From assembly GCA_016865035.1 (NCBI GenBank), contig CP018227.1, forward strand, positions 528,001-592,000: a stretch of 64,000 nucleotides of DNA. The letters run 5' to 3'. Position 1 is the first letter of the stretch. Each line of letters begins with the position of its first letter. This document shows, one piece after another, positions 17,778 through 27,276 of the stretch. A model generated the notes under the pieces. It had not been told where the DNA came from. It searched no databases and saw only the letters and a program-made list of their open reading frames with translations. The translations under genes and the position numbers were made by a program. Source of the DNA: Kordiimonadales bacterium IMCC3096. GTDB taxonomy: Bacteria; Pseudomonadota; Alphaproteobacteria; Minwuiales; Minwuiaceae.

Positions 17778-18737
17778 ATGCCCGACGGACACCCGGACCA
17801 GCCCGTGATCGACGCGGCGGAGATCACCCGCGCGGCGGCGCTGCTGCGCGCCGGTCGTCTGGTGGCCTTCCCGACGGAGACGGTCTATGGCCTGGGTGCG
17901 GACGCCACCAACGGCACCGCGGTCGCGGGGATCTTCGCCGCCAAGAACCGCCCCAGCTTCAACCCGCTGATCGCCCATGTGCCGGACCTGGCCGCGGCGC
18001 GGGAACTGGTGGTCTTCGACGATCTCGCGGAACGGCTGGCGACGCGCTTCTGGCCCGGCGCGCTGACCCTGGTCCTGCCCCGACGCGACAGGTGCCCGGT
18101 GGCGGAGATCTGCTCCGCCGGACTGGACACGCTGGCCGTGCGGGTGCCTGCGGGCGAGATCGCGCAGGCGCTGCTGCGGGCGGTCGGGCGCCCCGTCGCC
18201 GCGCCCTCCGCCAACCCTTCGGGCCGCCTCAGCCCCACCACCGCCGCGCATGTCATCAGCGGCCTCGGCGACCGGGTGGCCATGGTGCTGGACGGCGGCC
18301 CCTGCCCGGTCGGGGTGGAGTCCACCGTGGTTGGCGTCTTCGAGGGGCAGGCCGTGCTGCTGCGTCCCGGTGGGCTGGCGGTGGAGGAGATCGAGGCCAT
18401 CGTCGGCCCCCTCAGCCGCCCCTCCGGTGCCCCGGACGCGCCGGCAAGTCCCGGCATGCTGGCCAGCCACTACGCACCGCAAAGTGCACTGCGCCTCAAC
18501 GCAATGACGGCGGAGCCTGGTGAAACGCTTCTGGGTTTCGGCCCCGATGCCCCGCCAGGTCCGAATCTCAGCCGCACAGGCGACCTGGCGGAGGCGGCGG
18601 CGAACCTGTTTCAGGTGCTGCACAGCATCGACAGGGGCGAAACAGGGCGGATCGCCGTGATGCCGATCCCGAACCATGGACTCGGACTGGCCATCAACGA
18701 CCGGCTCACTCGGGCGGCGGCGCCGAGAGACGGCTGA
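17778..18737 (+). CDS. L-threonylcarbamoyladenylate synthase (Sua5 type)
   Basis: Makes threonylcarbamoyl-AMP from threonine, bicarbonate and ATP, for the t6A37 modification of ANN-decoding tRNAs. An N-terminal YrdC domain is clear: LVAFPTETVYGLGADA, KNRPSFNPLIAHV, FWPGALTLVL and APSANPSGRLSPTTA. The C-terminal extension, beginning near SPGMLASHYAP, makes this the long Sua5 form (319 residues) rather than short TsaC. The last 32 bp overlap the convergent MFS gene. Confidence 0.93.
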   Translation: MPDGHPDQPVIDAAEITRAAALLRAGRLVAFPTETVYGLGADATNGTAVAGIFAAKNRPSFNPLIAHVPDLAAARELVVFDDLAERLATRFWPGALTLVLPRRDRCPVAEICSAGLDTLAVRVPAGEIAQALLRAVGRPVAAPSANPSGRLSPTTAAHVISGLGDRVAMVLDGGPCPVGVESTVVGVFEGQAVLLRPGGLAVEEIEAIVGPLSRPSGAPDAPASPGMLASHYAPQSALRLNAMTAEPGETLLGFGPDAPPGPNLSRTGDLAEAAANLFQVLHSIDRGETGRIAVMPIPNHGLGLAINDRLTRAAAPRDG

Positions 18738-19926
18738 TCACGAAGATCGCGACGATCAGTATCCCCGACTGGGTCCAGAGCGCCGGTCCATAGGATCCGG
18801 CGGCATCGCGGATCACACCGCTCATCCCCGGCCCCATTGCCTGGAACAGGTAGAGAAACAGCGCCAGCAGCCCGTAGGTCTTGCCATAGCCGGCGGCCCC
18901 GAACCAGCGTCGCGCCAGCAGCGGCGGCAGGATGACCAGGCAGCCGACAACGAAACCCGACAGCGCACAGGCACCATAGAGCGCGAGGCCGGGCGGTGCC
19001 TCCGCGATCGCCACCAGCCCCAGCGCCTGGACGCCATAGGACACACCGGCGATCCAGCGCAGGTCGAAACGCGCCGCGAAGAACCCCAGGCCGAAACGCC
19101 CGATGATCCCCGCTGCCGCCGTGACCGCCACCGCGTCCGCCGCCGCTGTCCGGGTCAGACGCTCCTCCAGCACCGGGATCTGGTGCGACAGGAACCCCAC
19201 CTGCGCGGCGAGGCTGAGGCCGGTGGCCAGCACGATGACCCAGAATGCGGGAATGCGTGCCGTCGTGCCGAGGTGACGCAGCGCAGGCGTGGCGCTTGCC
19301 GCGGTCTCTGCCGCGCCCGGGGGCCGGGCGATGACCAGCGCCGCCACGGGCAGGGTGACGATGATGATGGAGAGCCCCGCCGCCGTGGCGGCGAAGGTGA
19401 AACCTTCCGCCACGGCGATCCGGGTCACGACCGGCACCATCACCATGGCCCCGACGCTCGCTCCGGTCAGGGCAAAGCTCATGGCCATGCCGAGGTTGCG
19501 GTCGAACCACGGCCCCAGCGTGGCGCTGATCCCCACTGCGCCCACCGCCGGATAGCCCAGCGCCATGACCACGAAGGCCGCATAGATGTGCCAGAGTTCG
19601 CTCGCCTGCCCCAGCAGCAGCACACTGATGCCCACCAGCGTCCCCCCGGCGGCCATCACCGCGCGCGGACCAAAGCGGTCGATCATGCCACCGGTGATCA
19701 CCGTCATCGGAATGCCCACCACCCAGAACAGGGTCACCGCGCCGGAGACCGCGCTGGTGGACCAGCCATGCAGCCGCGTCAGCGAGGAGATGTAGAAGCC
19801 GTGACCGTAGAAGACCGTGCCCCAGGCAAAGATCGCGATCAGGAAACACCCTGCGGTGACCGCCCAGCCCCGGTGAAACCGGGGGGCGTGGACGCGCTCG
19901 GGCAAGGGTTCGGCGACAGGCTCCAT
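18706..19926 (-). CDS. Major facilitator superfamily transporter
   Basis: Twelve-helix MFS permease (406 residues). It resembles the monocarboxylate / oxalate-formate antiporter branch: HRGWAVTAGCFLIAIFAWGTVF in helix 1, the loop GGMIDRFGPRAVM between helices 2 and 3, and a matching FGLGFFAARFDLRW loop in the second half. The substrate is unknown. It converges on and overlaps the threonylcarbamoyladenylate synthase gene by 32 bp. Confidence 0.85.
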   Translation of the reverse strand: MEPVAEPLPERVHAPRFHRGWAVTAGCFLIAIFAWGTVFYGHGFYISSLTRLHGWSTSAVSGAVTLFWVVGIPMTVITGGMIDRFGPRAVMAAGGTLVGISVLLLGQASELWHIYAAFVVMALGYPAVGAVGISATLGPWFDRNLGMAMSFALTGASVGAMVMVPVVTRIAVAEGFTFAATAAGLSIIIVTLPVAALVIARPPGAAETAASATPALRHLGTTARIPAFWVIVLATGLSLAAQVGFLSHQIPVLEERLTRTAAADAVAVTAAAGIIGRFGLGFFAARFDLRWIAGVSYGVQALGLVAIAEAPPGLALYGACALSGFVVGCLVILPPLLARRWFGAAGYGKTYGLLALFLYLFQAMGPGMSGVIRDAAGSYGPALWTQSGILIVAIFVISRLSAPPPE

Positions 19927-20162: not shown

Positions 20163-21461
20163 TCAGGCGCGTTTCAGGTGGAACAGGGCGACGTTGATCA
20201 GGCCGTCGCGGAAGCCTTCGGCACAGAACAGCAGGTAGAAGCGCCACATGCGGCGGAAGCGCTCGTCGAAGCCGTCGAGGCGGCCGATCTCCGGCCAGGC
20301 GCGTTCGAATGACTGCTGCCAGATGCGCAGCGTGCGCTCGTAGCTGCGGCCGAAGAACTGTTCTCCGGCCAGTTCCAGTCCCGCATCCTGGGCAGCACTG
20401 CGGAAGGCGGAGGGCGACGGCAGCATGCCGCCGGGAAAGATGTAGCGCTGGATGAAGTCCGCGCGCTTGCGGTAGGCGGGAAAGGCGTCGTCGTCGATGG
20501 TGATGACCTGGATCACCGCTTCCCCGCCCGGCCGCAGACGGTCATGCACGGTGCGGAAATAGGCAGGCCAGTTCTCCTCCCCCACCGCCTCGAACATCTC
20601 GATGGAGACGATGCGGTCATAAGTACCGGAGGTGTCGCGGTAGTCGGTCAGGCTGAAGCGGGCGCTGTCCGCCAGCCCTTCCGCCGCGATGCGGTCACGG
20701 GCATGGCGAAGCTGCTCGGTCGACAGGGTGATGCCGGTGACATCCGCCCCGCGCTCACGCGCCGCGACCTCCGCCAGGCCGCCCCAGCCGCAGCCGATCT
20801 CCAGCACCCGGTCACCTGTGCCGACATTGGCCATGTCGAGAATCGTGCGGTATTTCCGCGCCTGCGCCTCGGCGAGGCTCGTTTCATCGTCATCCGCCGT
20901 GAACAGGGCTGACGAATAGGTCATGCTCTCGTCCAGCCAGGGCGCATAGAAGGCGTTTCCGAGATCGTAGTGGTAGGCGATGTTGCGGCGGCTGCCCCTG
21001 CGGGAGTTGGCGTGGCGGCGATGGAACAGCAGGTCCAGCCAGCGCCGGGTGGCCAGTCCCTGCGACTGGCGCACAAGCGCCTGGCGGTTCATCTGCACGA
21101 CCTGGAGAAAGGCCGCGAGATCAGGCGTCGACCAGTCGCCATCCAGATAGGCCTCGGCAAAGCCAAGCTCTCCGCCGGTGACCAGCCTGCGCAGGGCGCG
21201 CCAGCGATGCAGCACGACCTCCGCCGCCGGTTCCGCGTCCGATGCGCGCCGCCCCGCCGTGAGCGTGCGGCCATCAGGCCGGTGAAAGATGATCTGGCCG
21301 GTGCCGATGCATCCGGCAACGCGGTGCAGCACGCGCGACCAGAGCAGGGCGCCCCCCCGCCGGTGCAGCCAGCCACTCCGGCGTCGGGCGCCGATTTCCT
21401 CCAGCATCGCTTCAACCGTGTCCTGGCGCTTGCGATCCCCAACGGTGTCGATCGTGCTCAT
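20163..21461 (-). CDS. Cyclopropane-fatty-acid synthase family methyltransferase
   Basis: SAM-dependent methyltransferase of the CFA synthase family (432 residues), acting on unsaturated acyl chains of membrane phospholipids. Seen are the N-terminal lipid-binding domain, RNIAYHYDLGNAFYAPWLDESMTYSS, the SAM motif VLEIGCGWGGLAEVAA, and QRYIFPGGMLPS. The ATG at 21461 (MSTIDTVGD) is preferred, since GGGAG lies 5 bp upstream; a GTG two codons earlier is possible. It is the third gene of the operon divergent from rpoE-chrR. It could be a true CFA synthase or the UfaM-type methylase of furan-fatty-acid synthesis. Confidence 0.88.
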   Translation of the reverse strand: MSTIDTVGDRKRQDTVEAMLEEIGARRRSGWLHRRGGALLWSRVLHRVAGCIGTGQIIFHRPDGRTLTAGRRASDAEPAAEVVLHRWRALRRLVTGGELGFAEAYLDGDWSTPDLAAFLQVVQMNRQALVRQSQGLATRRWLDLLFHRRHANSRRGSRRNIAYHYDLGNAFYAPWLDESMTYSSALFTADDDETSLAEAQARKYRTILDMANVGTGDRVLEIGCGWGGLAEVAARERGADVTGITLSTEQLRHARDRIAAEGLADSARFSLTDYRDTSGTYDRIVSIEMFEAVGEENWPAYFRTVHDRLRPGGEAVIQVITIDDDAFPAYRKRADFIQRYIFPGGMLPSPSAFRSAAQDAGLELAGEQFFGRSYERTLRIWQQSFERAWPEIGRLDGFDERFRRMWRFYLLFCAEGFRDGLINVALFHLKRA

Positions 21462-21516
21462 GGGCACTCCCTGAACGTCATGCTGTCCGGTCGATGTCCT
21501 GATGTCTCGTCACGTC

Positions 21517-22302
21517 TCAGGCGCGCCATGAACTGGCGGGCCGCCCAAGGAACGGAATGCCTTTCAGCCACAGCCGCGCCGCCTCCCAGTGTATCCCGGC
21601 AACAACCTTGTGGGTCATCAGCGGGTGACGCAAGACCGTCGAGACGATCTGGCGGTCGGTCAGAGGCTTGCGCTGACCGCTGAAACTGGCATCCAGCAGC
21701 GGGCCATCGTCGTCGGCATGACGGATCACCACCGCCACATCCTGACCCGGCGGGCGCACCCGAAAGCGGTAGTTGCCGGTATTGGCGATGAAGGGAGAGA
21801 CGAAGAAACGCTTCTCCGCCTGCTGCATCACCAGCCCGGTATCCTCCCCCTCCACGGGGATGGCATAGGCGTGGCGGTCGCCGAAGGTATTGTGGACCTC
21901 ATAGACAATGGCGCGCAGCGTGCCGGTGTCGTCGCGACAGAACCAGACGGTCAGCGGGTTGAACACGTACCCGAGCAATCGGGGATAGGTCAGCATCTCT
22001 ATCCGGGCCGGCGCCGGCTGACCGATGTCGTGCAGCAGCCCCTCGATCCAGGGGCGCAGGCCCAGACCCGCCTCCCCTTGCCCGTGATCCGTTGGCCCAT
22101 GATCTTCTGGCCGGAACGAAAGCAGGGCCCGGCGTCCGTGGCCGAACAGCCTGAGCGTCCCGTCCAGTTCGTCCAGCCGGTCCACGTCGAGCCCCAGCGA
22201 GAAGACACGGTAGCTCAACCGGTGCCGCTTCGGACGGTGCCGGACGTGAACCACGCGGCCCTCGTAGATGCTGCCTGCCGGTATCGGGTGAATGCCGGTC
22301 AC
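21517..22302 (-). CDS. DUF1365 family protein
   Basis: Conserved protein of 261 residues in the DUF1365 family, whose members regularly sit between an FAD-dependent amine-oxidase-like protein and a CFA-synthase-like protein, as here. Family segments are SIYEGRVVHVRHRPKRHRLSYR at the N-terminus, LTYPRLLGYVFNPLTVWFC, and VHNTFGDRHAY. No enzyme motif can be assigned. It starts 2 bp after the upstream oxidoreductase stop, so co-translation is likely. A role in modifying membrane acyl chains is inferred from context only. Confidence 0.85.
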   Translation of the reverse strand: MTGIHPIPAGSIYEGRVVHVRHRPKRHRLSYRVFSLGLDVDRLDELDGTLRLFGHGRRALLSFRPEDHGPTDHGQGEAGLGLRPWIEGLLHDIGQPAPARIEMLTYPRLLGYVFNPLTVWFCRDDTGTLRAIVYEVHNTFGDRHAYAIPVEGEDTGLVMQQAEKRFFVSPFIANTGNYRFRVRPPGQDVAVVIRHADDDGPLLDASFSGQRKPLTDRQIVSTVLRHPLMTHKVVAGIHWEAARLWLKGIPFLGRPASSWRA

Positions 22303-22304
22303 GG

Positions 22305-23672
22305 TCAGGCGGCCTGCCGGGTGCTGGTCATCAGTTCCGGCCAGCCGGGCGGCAGGCTGAGACGGCCGGATTCATTCTCCACGTCCCACGGCCTGCGGAC
22401 ACCGCCCAGCGCCTCCGCCACCGCCAGCCCGGCCTGAATGCCATCCTCATGAAACCCGTCCCCCAGATAGCTGCCGCAGAACCAGGTGTTGCGATGGCCC
22501 TGAATGTTCCAGATCAGGCTGCGCATCCGCACCGTCGCCGCATCAAAGACCGGATGATCATAAGGCACGGTACGCAGGATCGTCCCCTCCGCCGGTTGCT
22601 CCACCGGATTCAGCGTGACGAACAGGTCGTGCCGGGTCGGCAACGGCTGCAGCCGGTTCATCCAGTAACTGACGCAGAGCTGCTGCGCCTCGCCATTGGC
22701 GGAGGCCTGACGGGTGAGGTAGTTCCAGCTTGCCCAGACCCGGCGGCGCTTCGGCATCAGCGCCCTGTCGGTATGCAGCATCGCCACGTTCCGCTGGTAG
22801 CGGAAGGCGCGCAGCATGCGCTGCTCCGCGCCGTCAGGATCCTTGATCAGCGCCAGCGCCTCGTCGGCGTGGCAGGCAAGGACGACCTCGTCGAACTCCT
22901 CGACACCGCCCTGCCGGTCCTCGATCCGGACACCGTCCGGCAGCCGGGTCACCGCTTCCACCGCCGTGTTGAGGCGGATCCGGTCCCGAAAGCCTGCCGT
23001 CAGCCGCTTCACGTATTCACGGCTGCCGCCCTGAACTGTCGACCATTGCGGTCGGCCGGAAAGGCCCAGCAGCCCGTGATTGTCCAGAAACCGCAGCAGG
23101 CTCTGCGCCGGATAGTCCAGCATGTGCTCCGCCGGGGTGGACCAGATCGCCGCGGTCATGGGCAGCAGGTGATCACGCACGAAGGCATGGCCCAGCCGGT
23201 GCTGGCCCAGGTACTCGCGCAGGGTCATGGTCTCCGGCGTCTCCGCGAAACTCTCCTTCGCCTCCGCATAGAAGCGGCGAATGTCGATCAGCATGCGCCA
23301 GAAGTCCGGCCGGATCAGGTTGCGGCGCTGCCCGAACAGCATGGAAGGCGCGGCCCCGCCATATTCGAAACGGCCATTGTCGCTGGACACGGCAAAGGAC
23401 ATGTCCGACTTCGCCACCGGTACATCCAGATGGTCGAACAGGGCATTCAGGTTGGGATAGTTCCGGTCGTTGAAGACGATGAAGCCGGTGTCCACGGCAA
23501 TGGTCCCGTCACCGGCATCCACTTCGACCGTGTTCGCATGTCCGCCGACATGCTCCGCGCGGTCATAGACCGTGACCCTGTGGCTCCGGGACAGCAACCA
23601 GGCAGCGGACATACCGGAAATGCCGGACCCGATGATGGCGATGTTGCGACCGGTACTGGTGGCTGAATGCAT
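22305..23672 (-). CDS. FAD-dependent amine-oxidase-like oxidoreductase
   Basis: Flavoprotein of 455 residues with an N-terminal FAD-binding GSGISGMSAAWLLSRSHRVTVYD motif, a GGHANTV stretch and a C-terminal CGSYLGDGFHEDGIQAGLAVAEAL segment where FAD binding closes. It resembles the NAD/FAD-binding proteins next to CFA synthases. The start at 23672 (MHSATSTGRNIAIIG) follows TAGGA by about 7 bp. It is the first gene of the operon read leftward from the TGATCC promoter at 23748-23777, so control by the neighbouring ECF sigma factor is likely. Confidence 0.86.
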   Translation of the reverse strand: MHSATSTGRNIAIIGSGISGMSAAWLLSRSHRVTVYDRAEHVGGHANTVEVDAGDGTIAVDTGFIVFNDRNYPNLNALFDHLDVPVAKSDMSFAVSSDNGRFEYGGAAPSMLFGQRRNLIRPDFWRMLIDIRRFYAEAKESFAETPETMTLREYLGQHRLGHAFVRDHLLPMTAAIWSTPAEHMLDYPAQSLLRFLDNHGLLGLSGRPQWSTVQGGSREYVKRLTAGFRDRIRLNTAVEAVTRLPDGVRIEDRQGGVEEFDEVVLACHADEALALIKDPDGAEQRMLRAFRYQRNVAMLHTDRALMPKRRRVWASWNYLTRQASANGEAQQLCVSYWMNRLQPLPTRHDLFVTLNPVEQPAEGTILRTVPYDHPVFDAATVRMRSLIWNIQGHRNTWFCGSYLGDGFHEDGIQAGLAVAEALGGVRRPWDVENESGRLSLPPGWPELMTSTRQAA

Positions 23673-23747
23673 GTGTTTCCTACCCAAGGGCGTGAGCCGG
23701 TTTACCGCGTCCCGCTGTCCGATTGCCGGACCCCGGTTCGTCACCCT

Positions 23748-23777
23748 AGGCTACGAGGCGTTTGTTTCGGTGGATCA
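23748..23777 (-). promoter_or_regulatory. ECF11-type promoter for the lipid operon
   Basis: Minus-strand TGATCC (23777-23772), an 18-bp spacer, then TAGCCT. This fits the RpoE/ChrR-class promoter of Rhodobacter (TGATCC, 18-19 bp, TAnnn). It lies about 75 bp upstream of the FAD oxidoreductase start. The same architecture recurs on the opposite strand 38 bp away for the sigma gene itself. Confidence 0.65.
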
Positions 23778-23814
23778 CCGGGGGACAATGTCGGAAATTT
23801 TTCTGCATTGTGCC

Positions 23815-23844
23815 TGATCCGCTCCGGCAGCGCGCACGTACACG
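23815..23844 (+). promoter_or_regulatory. ECF11-type promoter for rpoE-chrR (autoregulation)
   Basis: TGATCC at 23815-23820, an 18-bp spacer, then TACACG. It matches the consensus of the ECF11 family to which the downstream sigma gene belongs, which implies autoregulation. The predicted transcription start falls within a few bases of the chosen ATG at 23850. Confidence 0.65.
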
Positions 23845-23849
23845 GCTTC

Positions 23850-24452
23850 ATGAGGGCAGCATTGAAACAGGTACCGGGTTCGGGGTCGTTCGAGACCACC
23901 GGGCCGTCCATACCGGAACTGAACCGGCTTCTCGTCGATATTGCCGAGAAGCGCAGCCGTGCCGCCTTTGCGGAACTCTTCAGTCACTTCGCCCCCCGCA
24001 TCAAGGGCTTCATCATGCGCTCGGGCACCAGTGAGGAGCTGGCGGAAGAGATCGTGCAGGAGACCATGGTGACCGTCTGGACCAAGGCAACGCAGTTCGA
24101 TGCCGCCCGGGCCGGCGCATCCACCTGGATCTTCACCATCGCGCGCAACAAGCGGATCGACATCCTGCGCCGGGTCAGTCGGCCCGAGCCTGATCCGGAA
24201 GATCCGATGTTCCAGCCCGACCCGCCCCAGTCGGGGGAGGAATTCACCCAGTCCAGACAGGACCAGGTCCGGGTCAGGGCGGCACTGGAGCACCTGCCGC
24301 CCGAACAGGTCGAGATCGTGCGGCTGTCGTTCTTCGACAGCCTGACACATTCGGAGATTGCGGAACGTCTCTCCCTGCCCCTGGGCACGGTGAAATCCCG
24401 CCTGAGACTTTCGTTCCGCAAGATACGTTCTGCATTGGGAGATGAGAGATGA
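23850..24452 (+). CDS. rpoE: ECF11-family RNA polymerase sigma factor
   Basis: Group IV sigma factor of 200 residues. Region 2 (AAFAELFSHFAPRIKGFIMR ... AEEIVQETMVTVW ... TWIFTIARNKRIDILRR) and region 4 (LEHLPPEQVEIVRLSFF ... HSEIAERLSLPLGTVKSRLRL) are complete. It overlaps the ChrR-type anti-sigma gene by 4 bp, which places it in the ECF11 class known from Rhodobacter for the singlet-oxygen response. The ATG at 23850 nearly coincides with the predicted transcription start. A downstream TTG at 23862 would also leave the sigma domains intact, so the true start is uncertain. Confidence 0.92.
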   Translation: MRAALKQVPGSGSFETTGPSIPELNRLLVDIAEKRSRAAFAELFSHFAPRIKGFIMRSGTSEELAEEIVQETMVTVWTKATQFDAARAGASTWIFTIARNKRIDILRRVSRPEPDPEDPMFQPDPPQSGEEFTQSRQDQVRVRAALEHLPPEQVEIVRLSFFDSLTHSEIAERLSLPLGTVKSRLRLSFRKIRSALGDER

Positions 24453-25099
24453 TGATACGTCATCACCCGAACGAGGCGACCCTGCTGAGCTATGCCTCCG
24501 GCGGCTTGCCCACCGCGCTGTCGGCCATCGTCGCAACCCATCTGGCGGTCTGCCCGACCTGCCGTGCCCGCACCGCGGAGGCGGAGGCCATTGGCGGCGC
24601 GCTGCTGGGCGCGGTCGAGCCTGTCGAGGTCGGTGCCGGGGCGCTGGATCGCGCGCTGGCCGCAATCGACGCGGATTTTGCTGGCGACGTGAACCAGGTT
24701 GCGGATACGGGCATGCGCAATCGCGATCTGCCGTCCCCCCTTGGCGCCATGCTGCCTGCCGATCTGGACAGCCTGCGCTGGTGGCCGGTCGGGCGCGGCA
24801 TTCGTCAGGCCCGTGTCGGTACCGGCGAGGCCATGATCCGCCTGTTGCGGATCGCGCCCGGTCGGGCCGTGCCGCAGCACAGTCACGGCGGTCACGAGAT
24901 GACCATGATCGTCTCCGGCTCCTATACCGACGAGATCGGGCGTTTCATGCCCGGCGATGTGGTCGATCTGGACCCGGAAGTTACGCATCAGCCGGTCTCC
25001 GACGCCGATACCGACTGCATCTGCATAATCGCCACCGATGCGCCGCTGGAGTTCACCGGCTGGGTGCCGCGCCTGATGCAGTCGCTGGTCCGTGTCTGA
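24449..25099 (+). CDS. chrR: ChrR-type zinc anti-sigma factor with cupin domain
   Basis: Anti-sigma factor of 216 residues that holds the adjacent sigma factor inactive until released by singlet oxygen or similar stress. The N-terminal zinc anti-sigma domain has His6, His31, Cys35 and Cys38, the same positions as the ligands reported for Rhodobacter sphaeroides ChrR. The C-terminal cupin keeps the second zinc site: His144, His146, Glu150 and His180. The start ATG overlaps the sigma gene stop as ATGA. All metal ligands being intact suggests a working sensor. Confidence 0.93.
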   Translation: MMIRHHPNEATLLSYASGGLPTALSAIVATHLAVCPTCRARTAEAEAIGGALLGAVEPVEVGAGALDRALAAIDADFAGDVNQVADTGMRNRDLPSPLGAMLPADLDSLRWWPVGRGIRQARVGTGEAMIRLLRIAPGRAVPQHSHGGHEMTMIVSGSYTDEIGRFMPGDVVDLDPEVTHQPVSDADTDCICIIATDAPLEFTGWVPRLMQSLVRV

Positions 25100-25197: not shown

Positions 25198-27276
25198 GTG
25201 TCCGATGCCCAGCCTCCCGTTGCCGAACAGCGCCCGCACAGCTTGACCGCCCACGGCGTGACCCGCCAGGACCCCTGGTACTGGCTGCGTGACGAGAACT
25301 GGCGGGAGGTCATGCGCGATCCCGCCGTGCTGGATGCCGACATCCGCGCCTATCTGGAGGCGGAGAATGCCTATGCCGAAGCCCGGCTGGCAGATGTCTC
25401 GGACCTGCGGAAGCACCTGTTCGAGGAACTGAAGGGACGGCTGAAGCAGGACGATTCCACACCCCCGGCTCCGGACGGCCCCTTCGCCTATTTCACCCGC
25501 TTCCTGCCCGGGGCCGAGCACCCGCAGTTCTGCCGCATCCCGCGCGAAGGTGGCGACACCGAACTGCTGCTGGACGGGGACGCGATGGCGGCGGGGCATG
25601 ATTTCTTCCGGTTGGGCGCGCTGCGGCATTCACCGGATCACAGGCTGCTCGCCGTTTCCTGCGACACGCGGGGGTCCGAACTCTTCGGCATCGAAGTCCG
25701 TGATCTTGCAACCGGCGAAACCATCGAGACCGGGCCGACCGGCACCAGCGGGGAAGTCATCTGGGCCGCCGACAACACACACTATTTCTACACCCTGCTG
25801 AACGACGACCTGCGGCCTGACCGGGCCTTCTGCCATCGCATCGGCGACGACCCGGCCAATGACCGGCTGGTCTATCACGAGCCGGACAGCGGCTATTTCC
25901 TGGGCCTCGACAACGGGGAGAGCGAGCGCTTTCTCTACCTGGTCTCGCATGCATCCGAGACCACGGAAGTGCGCTTCATCCCCACCGACAGTCCGGACGC
26001 CGAACCACGGCTGATCGCCCCGCGCCGCGACGGTCATGACTATGACGTGACCGATCAGGGCGACCGCTTCGTCATCCGGACCAACAAGGACGGTGCCATC
26101 GACTACAAGCTGATGACCGCACCGCTGGACCGGCCGGAGGAAGACAACTGGACGGACCTGGAGCCCGCGCGCGACGGCCGGCTGCTCCGCGCGGTATGCG
26201 CATTCGATAGCTGGCTGGTACATCTGGAAACGGTCAATGCCCTGCCCCGTATCGTCGTGACCGACACGGAAAGTGGCGAGCAGCACAGCATCGCCTTCGA
26301 TGAGGAGGCCTACAGCCTCGGCATCGCGGGCGGGGAATATGTCTCCGACACCGTCCGCTTCTCCTATTCCTCTCCCACCACGCCGGAGCAGACCTACGAC
26401 TACAACATGCGGACGCGGGAACGGGTCCTGGTCAAGGCGCAGGAAATCCCGTCCGGTCACGACCCGGCCAGCTATACCGTCCGCCGTCTGCAGGCCGTTT
26501 CCCACGACGGGGAGCAGATCCCGCTGACCCTGCTGCACCGCAATGACACGCCGCCTGCGCCGGACCGTCCGTTGCTGCTCTACGGCTACGGCTCCTACGG
26601 CATGTCGATGCCGGCCAGTTTCAGCCCGCACCGGCTCAGCCTGGTGGATCGCGGCTTCACCTATGTGATCGCCCATATCCGGGGCGGCATGGAGAAGGGC
26701 TATCGCTGGTACACCGAAGGCAAGCTGCTGAAGAAGACCAATACCTTCCGGGACTTCGTCTCCGCCGGGGAGCATCTGGTCGGCCAGGGCCTGGCGGGAC
26801 ACGGCAACATCGCCATTCATGGCGGCAGTGCCGGTGGCATGCTGGTGGGTGCGGCGGCCAACATGGCGCCGACGCTGTGGCGCGCGGTCGTCGCGGAAGT
26901 GCCCTTCGTCGATTGCCTGACGACGATCCTGGACGCCAGCCTGCCGCTCACCCCGCCGGAATGGACCGAATGGGGCAACCCGGTGGAATCGCGGGCCGTC
27001 CACGACCTGATGCAGTCCTACAGCCCCTACGACAATGTGGCGGCCATGGACTATCCGGCCATGCTGATCACGGGCGGCCTGACCGACCCGCGCGTCACCT
27101 ACTGGGAACCGGCCAAATGGGCGGCGAAGCTGCGGGCGACGCGCACCAACGACAGCCTGCTGCTGTTGCAGATCAACATGGACTCAGGCCATGGCGGATC
27201 GGCAGGACGCTTCGACAAGTTGCACGAGGTCGCGCGCAATCACGCCTTCCTGCTGAAGGTCTTTGGCAGGACCTGA
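25198..27276 (+). CDS. S9A prolyl oligopeptidase family (oligopeptidase B-like)
   Basis: Serine peptidase of 692 residues with an N-terminal beta-propeller and a C-terminal alpha/beta-hydrolase domain. The catalytic triad is readable: Ser544 in HGGSAGGML, Asp630 in GLTDPRVTYWEP, and His665 in MDSGHGGSAGR. The sequences HIRGGMEKGYRWYTEGKLLKK and EVPFVDCLTTILD are typical of oligopeptidase B, which cuts after basic residues; substrate choice is inferred. No signal peptide is seen, so it is probably cytoplasmic. The start is GTG at 25198, 8 bp after GTGGAGA. Confidence 0.92.
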   Translation: MSDAQPPVAEQRPHSLTAHGVTRQDPWYWLRDENWREVMRDPAVLDADIRAYLEAENAYAEARLADVSDLRKHLFEELKGRLKQDDSTPPAPDGPFAYFTRFLPGAEHPQFCRIPREGGDTELLLDGDAMAAGHDFFRLGALRHSPDHRLLAVSCDTRGSELFGIEVRDLATGETIETGPTGTSGEVIWAADNTHYFYTLLNDDLRPDRAFCHRIGDDPANDRLVYHEPDSGYFLGLDNGESERFLYLVSHASETTEVRFIPTDSPDAEPRLIAPRRDGHDYDVTDQGDRFVIRTNKDGAIDYKLMTAPLDRPEEDNWTDLEPARDGRLLRAVCAFDSWLVHLETVNALPRIVVTDTESGEQHSIAFDEEAYSLGIAGGEYVSDTVRFSYSSPTTPEQTYDYNMRTRERVLVKAQEIPSGHDPASYTVRRLQAVSHDGEQIPLTLLHRNDTPPAPDRPLLLYGYGSYGMSMPASFSPHRLSLVDRGFTYVIAHIRGGMEKGYRWYTEGKLLKKTNTFRDFVSAGEHLVGQGLAGHGNIAIHGGSAGGMLVGAAANMAPTLWRAVVAEVPFVDCLTTILDASLPLTPPEWTEWGNPVESRAVHDLMQSYSPYDNVAAMDYPAMLITGGLTDPRVTYWEPAKWAAKLRATRTNDSLLLLQINMDSGHGGSAGRFDKLHEVARNHAFLLKVFGRT

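Follow-up and report, generated by a model that had tools for sequence, protein, structure and literature searches.

Gene organization of the locus

The window, by which we mean the whole 64-kb stretch of DNA analysed, belongs to a genome that consists of a single contig of 4.29 Mb. The nearest named relatives found are Minwuia genomes (Alphaproteobacteria, Minwuiales), with 95 and 93% identity in the sigma factor that is central to the locus. This sigma factor (200 aa; 23850..24452, plus strand) is of the ECF11 (RpoE) type, with Pfam regions 2 and 4, and among solved structures it is nearest to R. sphaeroides RpoE (2q1z, E 7.4e-46, the best of 22 solved sequences matched). The gene for the anti-sigma factor ChrR follows on the same strand (24449..25099), its start overlapping the sigma stop codon in ATGA. 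In a profile search ChrR scored 196.5 bits against TIGR02451 (cut-off 124.5) and 169.3 against the narrower equivalog NF051881, below the cut-off of 300, and it matched the structure of R. sphaeroides ChrR (2z2s, chain B, E 3.1e-46). A Cupin_7 domain was found, and N-terminal His and Cys positions, presumably zinc ligands, are kept in the alignment with 2z2s. An RpoE-ChrR system has such an ECF11 sigma factor with an adjoining ChrR that carries zinc-binding anti-sigma and cupin domains, and by these features the two genes constitute one. An oligopeptidase B-like gene (25198-27276, plus strand) lies beyond chrR.

Divergently from the sigma gene, the minus strand encodes a FAD-dependent oxidoreductase (22305..23672; Amino_oxidase and NAD_binding_8 domains), a DUF1365 protein (21517..22302; PF07103, 272.7 bits) and a CMAS/CFA-synthase-like methyltransferase (20163..21467; PF02353, 284.5 bits), followed by an MFS transporter (18706-19926, minus strand). 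Furan fatty acids are synthesized by UfaM, UfaD and the DUF1365 protein UfaO, and in R. palustris the FAD protein, the DUF1365 protein and the methyltransferase are encoded in the order RPA2571-2570-2569 (PMC7380195). The window operon fits this ufaD-ufaO-ufaM arrangement in protein families and gene order. The oxidoreductase is thus UfaD-like by position and order and the DUF1365 protein UfaO-like; the methyltransferase, which scored below the cut-off of the NCBIfam CFA equivalogs, may be UfaM or a CFA synthase. From this likeness in families and order the operon is predicted to make furan fatty acids. As in R. palustris, and unlike in R. sphaeroides, where ufaM is RSP2144 and lies outside RSP1087-1091 (PMC7380195), the methyltransferase-like gene sits in the divergent operon. 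In R. sphaeroides, furan fatty acid genes are needed for the turnover of ChrR (PMC6852236).

Two back-to-back promoter motifs in the intergenic region

The region between the sigma gene and the lipid operon holds an exact pair of ECF-type promoter motifs, one on each strand, as the initial annotation had noticed. The plus-strand motif, read from the sequence and the Minwuia loci, points into sigma-chrR (-35 TGATCC at 23815..23820, -10 CGTA at 23837..23840) and the minus-strand motif into the FAD/DUF1365/CMAS operon (-35 TGATCC at 23772..23777, -10 CGTA at 23752..23755), each with a 16-nt spacer. Between the two -35 hexamers lie 37 nt (23778-23814), where the initial annotation gave 38 bp.

The motif had been given as TGATCC-N18-TA. 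Both sites do have this form, but it is not selective: a search with TGATCC-N17-20-TA gave 10 matches in the window where 2.73 were expected, and eight of the 10 fall outside the promoter pair. The loose motif alone was therefore rejected as evidence. In the stricter form that relatives show, TGATCY-N16-CGTA, the motif has exactly two matches in the 64-kb window, both of them the promoter pair, against 0.10 expected, and none of 100 shuffles reached two. The pair is convincing because of its place, its duplication and its conservation, rather than the number of motif matches in the genome.

The proposed match to the ECF11 (RpoE/ChrR) consensus holds well. The motif is the same as the consensus reported for promoters of P. 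syringae PSPTO_1043, TGATCC-N16-CGTA (PMC5507510), and for those of R. sphaeroides, TGATCC(N15)GCGTA (PMC5036791), and the RpoE2 promoters of Shewanella take the same form (PMC4336711). The PSPTO_1043-ChrR and Shewanella oneidensis RpoE2-ChrR systems thus resemble the window in their promoters, and in Shewanella the rpoE2 and chrR reading frames also overlap (PMC4336711); unlike the window, both systems belong to Gammaproteobacteria and have other target sets. In Stenotrophomonas maltophilia, putative sigma boxes for rpoEc (of rpoEc-chrR-chrA) and smlt2375 likewise lie in an intergenic region (PMC11832516), although the operon content is different.

Conservation of the promoter pair

We surveyed 138 loci (L004-L052 and L118-L206), which were reduced to 124 distinct sigma loci by dropping repeats of the same sigma factor and hits with E above 1e-20. 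One relative search gave 43 loci, of which 24 (L053-L076) were left out. A search of 387 genomes gave matches in 172; among the matches listed, 30 loci were used, one being the window's own. A further 60 loci were hand-picked, mostly one per family group.

A chrR gene adjoins the sigma gene in 112 of the 124 distinct loci. The strict motif was present within 400 nt upstream in 84 of these 112, versus none of the 12 loci where no chrR was found, and the TGATCY-to-CGTA spacer was 16 nt in 81 of the 84 motif loci and 15 nt in the other three. It was missing from 28 chrR loci, one of which (L163) has only 161 nt of upstream sequence, and a relaxed search of the 40 loci without the strict motif gave five weak candidates. 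The promoters might in principle belong to some other regulator, with the ECF11 consensus match a coincidence. Nothing was found that speaks for this. The association with chrR (84/112 versus 0/12) and the two tight matches in the window where 0.10 were expected both argue against this reading, and we regard it as very improbable.

The 12 close sigma relatives in which neither an adjacent chrR nor the strict motif was found are L126, L133, L134, L136, L142, L149, L164, L165 (cut by a contig end), L167, L178, L196 and L202. Some of them may represent a separate sigma subgroup.

Both motifs of the pair are kept in all seven Minwuia loci, the minus-strand motif at the same place in each; on the sigma side the spacer is 15 nt in two of the seven. 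More broadly, 43 chrR loci have a divergent FAD gene in view, and both motifs were found in 35 of them, only the sigma-side motif in six, only the FAD-side motif in two, and there was no locus with neither. The six loci with a sigma-side motif alone would suit a reading in which the sigma factor uses only the plus promoter, the lipid operon is transcribed from a different one, and the minus motif is no more than a random match or a degenerate copy. We consider this improbable, since the minus motif occurs in 37 of the 43 divergent loci and is retained in 7/7 Minwuia loci while the sequence between its hexamers drifts. The co-occurrence in 35 of 43 loci supports the prediction that the sigma gene and the FAD, DUF1365 and CFA-synthase-like genes form one regulon, and the initial interpretation of the region is supported as far as sequence can tell. 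In the 35 loci with both motifs, anything from 12 to 111 nt lies between the -35 elements (16 to 111 nt within Minwuia). We therefore rejected the idea of a constant spacing: the promoters are paired but not phased.

The sigma start codon lies close to the predicted transcription start

In the window the ATG of the sigma gene (23850..23852, plus strand) begins 9 nt after CGTA, a proximity that the initial annotation did not mention, and an ATG stands at this offset in all seven Minwuia loci. The TA of CGTA usually occupies positions -10/-9 or -11/-10, which would put +1 either on the A of the ATG or on the preceding base. We accordingly predict a sigma transcription start at 23849/23850 (plus strand) and a leaderless start codon.

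This geometry recurs well outside Minwuia. An in-frame ATG is found 8-9 nt after CGTA in 44 of the 84 motif loci (40 lack it) and 7-11 nt after CGTA in 52; several of the remaining 32 have a Shine-Dalgarno sequence before an ATG at 18-40 nt. At 8-9 nt there is not one out-of-frame ATG to set against the 44 in-frame ones, and a mere preference of the transcription start can therefore not account for the pattern. Offsets of 20-59 nt together yield 34 in-frame ATGs, fewer than one per offset. At the divergent promoters, an ATG in any frame occurs at 8-9 nt in only 3 of 39 loci (37 of these have the FAD gene in view and 37 have the sigma motif). Counted by group, 33 of 56 show the 7-11 nt geometry, which extends to one betaproteobacterial (L050) and one gammaproteobacterial (L052) locus, although the groups mix family codes and organism names that could not be matched, and some families may count twice. 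At least 18 changes are needed to explain its distribution over a quick tree of the 84 sigma factors. The geometry is therefore common, but neither universal nor fixed.

A Shine-Dalgarno-like 4-mer precedes the ATG in 2 of the 44 loci with an ATG at 8-9 nt and is absent from 42. The contrast is weak evidence, because just 13 of the other 40 loci show such a sequence ahead of any of their first three downstream starts. The stop codon of the sigma gene lies within ATGA, GTGA or TTGA in 82 of the 112 chrR loci, such that the chrR start can overlap it, and we infer that ChrR translation is coupled to that of the sigma factor through this overlap.

An alternative is that both promoters are real but that the sigma factor is translated from a downstream TTG (23862), behind a short leader with a Shine-Dalgarno-like GAGG. 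Under this reading ATGAGGGC would be conserved as a ribosome-binding site and not as a start codon. The GAGG is suitably spaced before the TTG, 12 nt after the ATG, in five of the seven Minwuia loci (the window and four others), and some later in-frame start with a Shine-Dalgarno sequence within 90 nt exists in 12 of the 44 loci. There is also a precedent from another ECF group: for B. japonicum ecfF a mapped start overlapped the annotated ATG, and the authors chose a downstream start (PMC3420878). The other 32 of the 44 loci have no such later start, however, the TTG is missing from two of the seven Minwuia loci in which ATGAGGGC is nevertheless kept, and the 44-to-0 frame bias at 8-9 nt also speaks against this reading. 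We therefore treat a downstream start as doubtful, though deserving of some weight.

Leaderless translation from the ATG is the reading that we favour, with reasonable but incomplete confidence, as a recurrent design of the autoregulated ECF11 sigma gene in Alphaproteobacteria and beyond. The distance from the promoter would place +1 on the ATG, the sigma factor and, via the ATGA overlap, ChrR would be made with no Shine-Dalgarno site at the sigma start, and the divergent promoter would keep an ordinary leader. If the geometry is real, it offers a simple testable rule, that the start codon is +1 in many ECF11 sigma genes; cells under stress would then need no Shine-Dalgarno site to make this master sigma factor, whose synthesis could be tied to an initiation mode favoured in such conditions.

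Among the papers listed in literature searches, no title or abstract opening described a leaderless ECF11 sigma gene. Genome-wide start maps of S. meliloti (PMC3616915) and Magnetospirillum (PMC9549626) contain leaderless mRNAs, and in that of Methylosinus these belong primarily to stress-response regulators and toxin-antitoxin systems (PMC12403871); the passages of these three papers on leaderless mRNAs name no ECF11 sigma factor among them. Regulon kinetics are treated in passages of PMC3688512.

On the lipid side, we prefer ATG 23672 as the start of the FAD gene over an in-frame GTG at 23744 (minus strand), which follows the CGTA on that strand by 7 nt. A GTG or TTG occupies the same 7-nt offset at L005-L008, the four closest of the other Minwuia loci. 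At L009 and L010 (Minwuia genomes G006 and G003), a 12-codon frame begins with an ATG 8 nt downstream of the CGTA on the minus strand, and its TGA overlaps an ATG at the FAD gene start; this frame possibly encodes a leaderless leader peptide.

A model for regulation at the locus

Taken as a whole, the intergenic region is best explained by two back-to-back ECF11 promoters, with ChrR-controlled autoregulation, activation of the lipid operon and, probably, a leaderless sigma mRNA; we put the probability of this explanation at about 0.9. Without stress, ChrR would keep the sigma factor inactive. A signal of the singlet-oxygen or organic-peroxide type would remove ChrR, and the freed sigma factor with RNA polymerase would then fire the plus promoter, giving sigma-chrR autoregulation, and the minus promoter, giving expression of the FAD oxidoreductase, the DUF1365 protein and the CMAS-like methyltransferase. 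Furan fatty acids produced by the lipid operon would promote rapid ChrR turnover as in R. sphaeroides, closing a positive loop. The 5' end of the sigma transcript would probably fall on the A of the ATG or on the base just upstream, with leaderless translation as a consequence and chrR translation coupled to it through ATGA. The same promoter probably drives the photolyase gene, rpoH and a few other genes.

The arrangement is a known regulatory design, here in a little-studied order, and the sigma start codon at about +1 is an additional regularity. Our results extend the RpoE/ChrR design to Minwuiales, including the back-to-back promoter pair and an RpoH gene that has the motif as well.

Candidate regulon members in Minwuia

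The window's own genome has 16 exact matches to the motif. The initial annotation had proposed a scan near DNA repair and phrA-like genes. Run in silico, it placed a motif upstream of the single photolyase gene found in the genome (PF00875, one match), although most single matches across the genome must be chance. Photolyase is a core member of ECF11 regulons. The motif also lies upstream of an RpoH-type sigma gene (TIGR02392, above cut-off) and of genes for an aldo/keto reductase, an ETF-ubiquinone oxidoreductase (ETF-QO), GTP cyclohydrolase I (folE), a DUF6134 protein, a VTT-domain protein and a histidine phosphatase.

The genome-wide enrichment is mild. Across seven Minwuia genomes the exact motif at N16 has 94 matches, versus 373 over the five spacer-shifted controls N18-N22, or about 75 per spacer, and many of the single matches must therefore be chance. 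A reversed-pattern control gave one hit in the seven genomes. It was set aside as misleading because the reversed pattern contains CTAG, a rare word in bacteria; the spacer-shifted patterns were used instead, which weakened the enrichment.

It is recurrence before the same gene that carries weight, not single matches. Sites sharing an identical 60-base sequence were collapsed into one entry, which left 85 distinct sites, and for the sites of G003 and G006 that were dropped in this way the genes were checked separately for phrA, rpoH and the DUF6134 gene. The motif precedes these three genes in 7/7 Minwuia genomes, ETF-QO, folE and an EncFtn-like gene in five, the aldo/keto reductase in three, and the phosphatase, the VTT protein and an ExbB-like gene (430 nt away) in two. 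At rpoH the sequence between the hexamers differs strongly among species while both hexamers are kept. The phrA and rpoH motifs fall within the 3'-terminal part of the upstream reading frame, and their conservation can thus be partly due to coding constraint and shared descent; shared descent can likewise lie behind part of the motif recurrence in general.

Judged by motif position alone, rpoE-chrR, the furan lipid genes, photolyase and RpoH would make up the core regulon, and photolyase, rpoH and a few other genes are probably driven by the same promoter type. The closest parallel is the R. sphaeroides RpoE (sigmaE)-ChrR system, also ECF11, whose direct sigmaE targets include rpoE-chrR, furan fatty acid genes, repair enzymes and RpoHII (PMC6852236). 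The window shares with it homologous sigma and ChrR proteins, the promoter consensus, predicted autoregulation and furan-fatty-acid type genes, and its genome shares photolyase and RpoH genes with the motif. The EncFtn-like, ETF-QO and DUF6134 genes are further Minwuia candidates that set it apart from R. sphaeroides.

The EncFtn-like site (L085; G000:C1 near 2768721, minus strand) precedes a 95-aa protein that scored 132.7 bits against PF22277 and 109.8 bits against TIGR04535, under the cut-off of 125. Its solved relatives include encapsulated ferritins, and an MFS-type gene follows. A search for an encapsulin shell gene (PF04454) in the window's own genome found none; a shell-less ferritin-like enzyme of the EncFtn family under an ECF11-type promoter would be unusual. 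In G003, contigs C4, C15 and C37 carry an identical motif site (60 bases) upstream of the DUF6134 gene, possibly a duplication or an assembly artefact.
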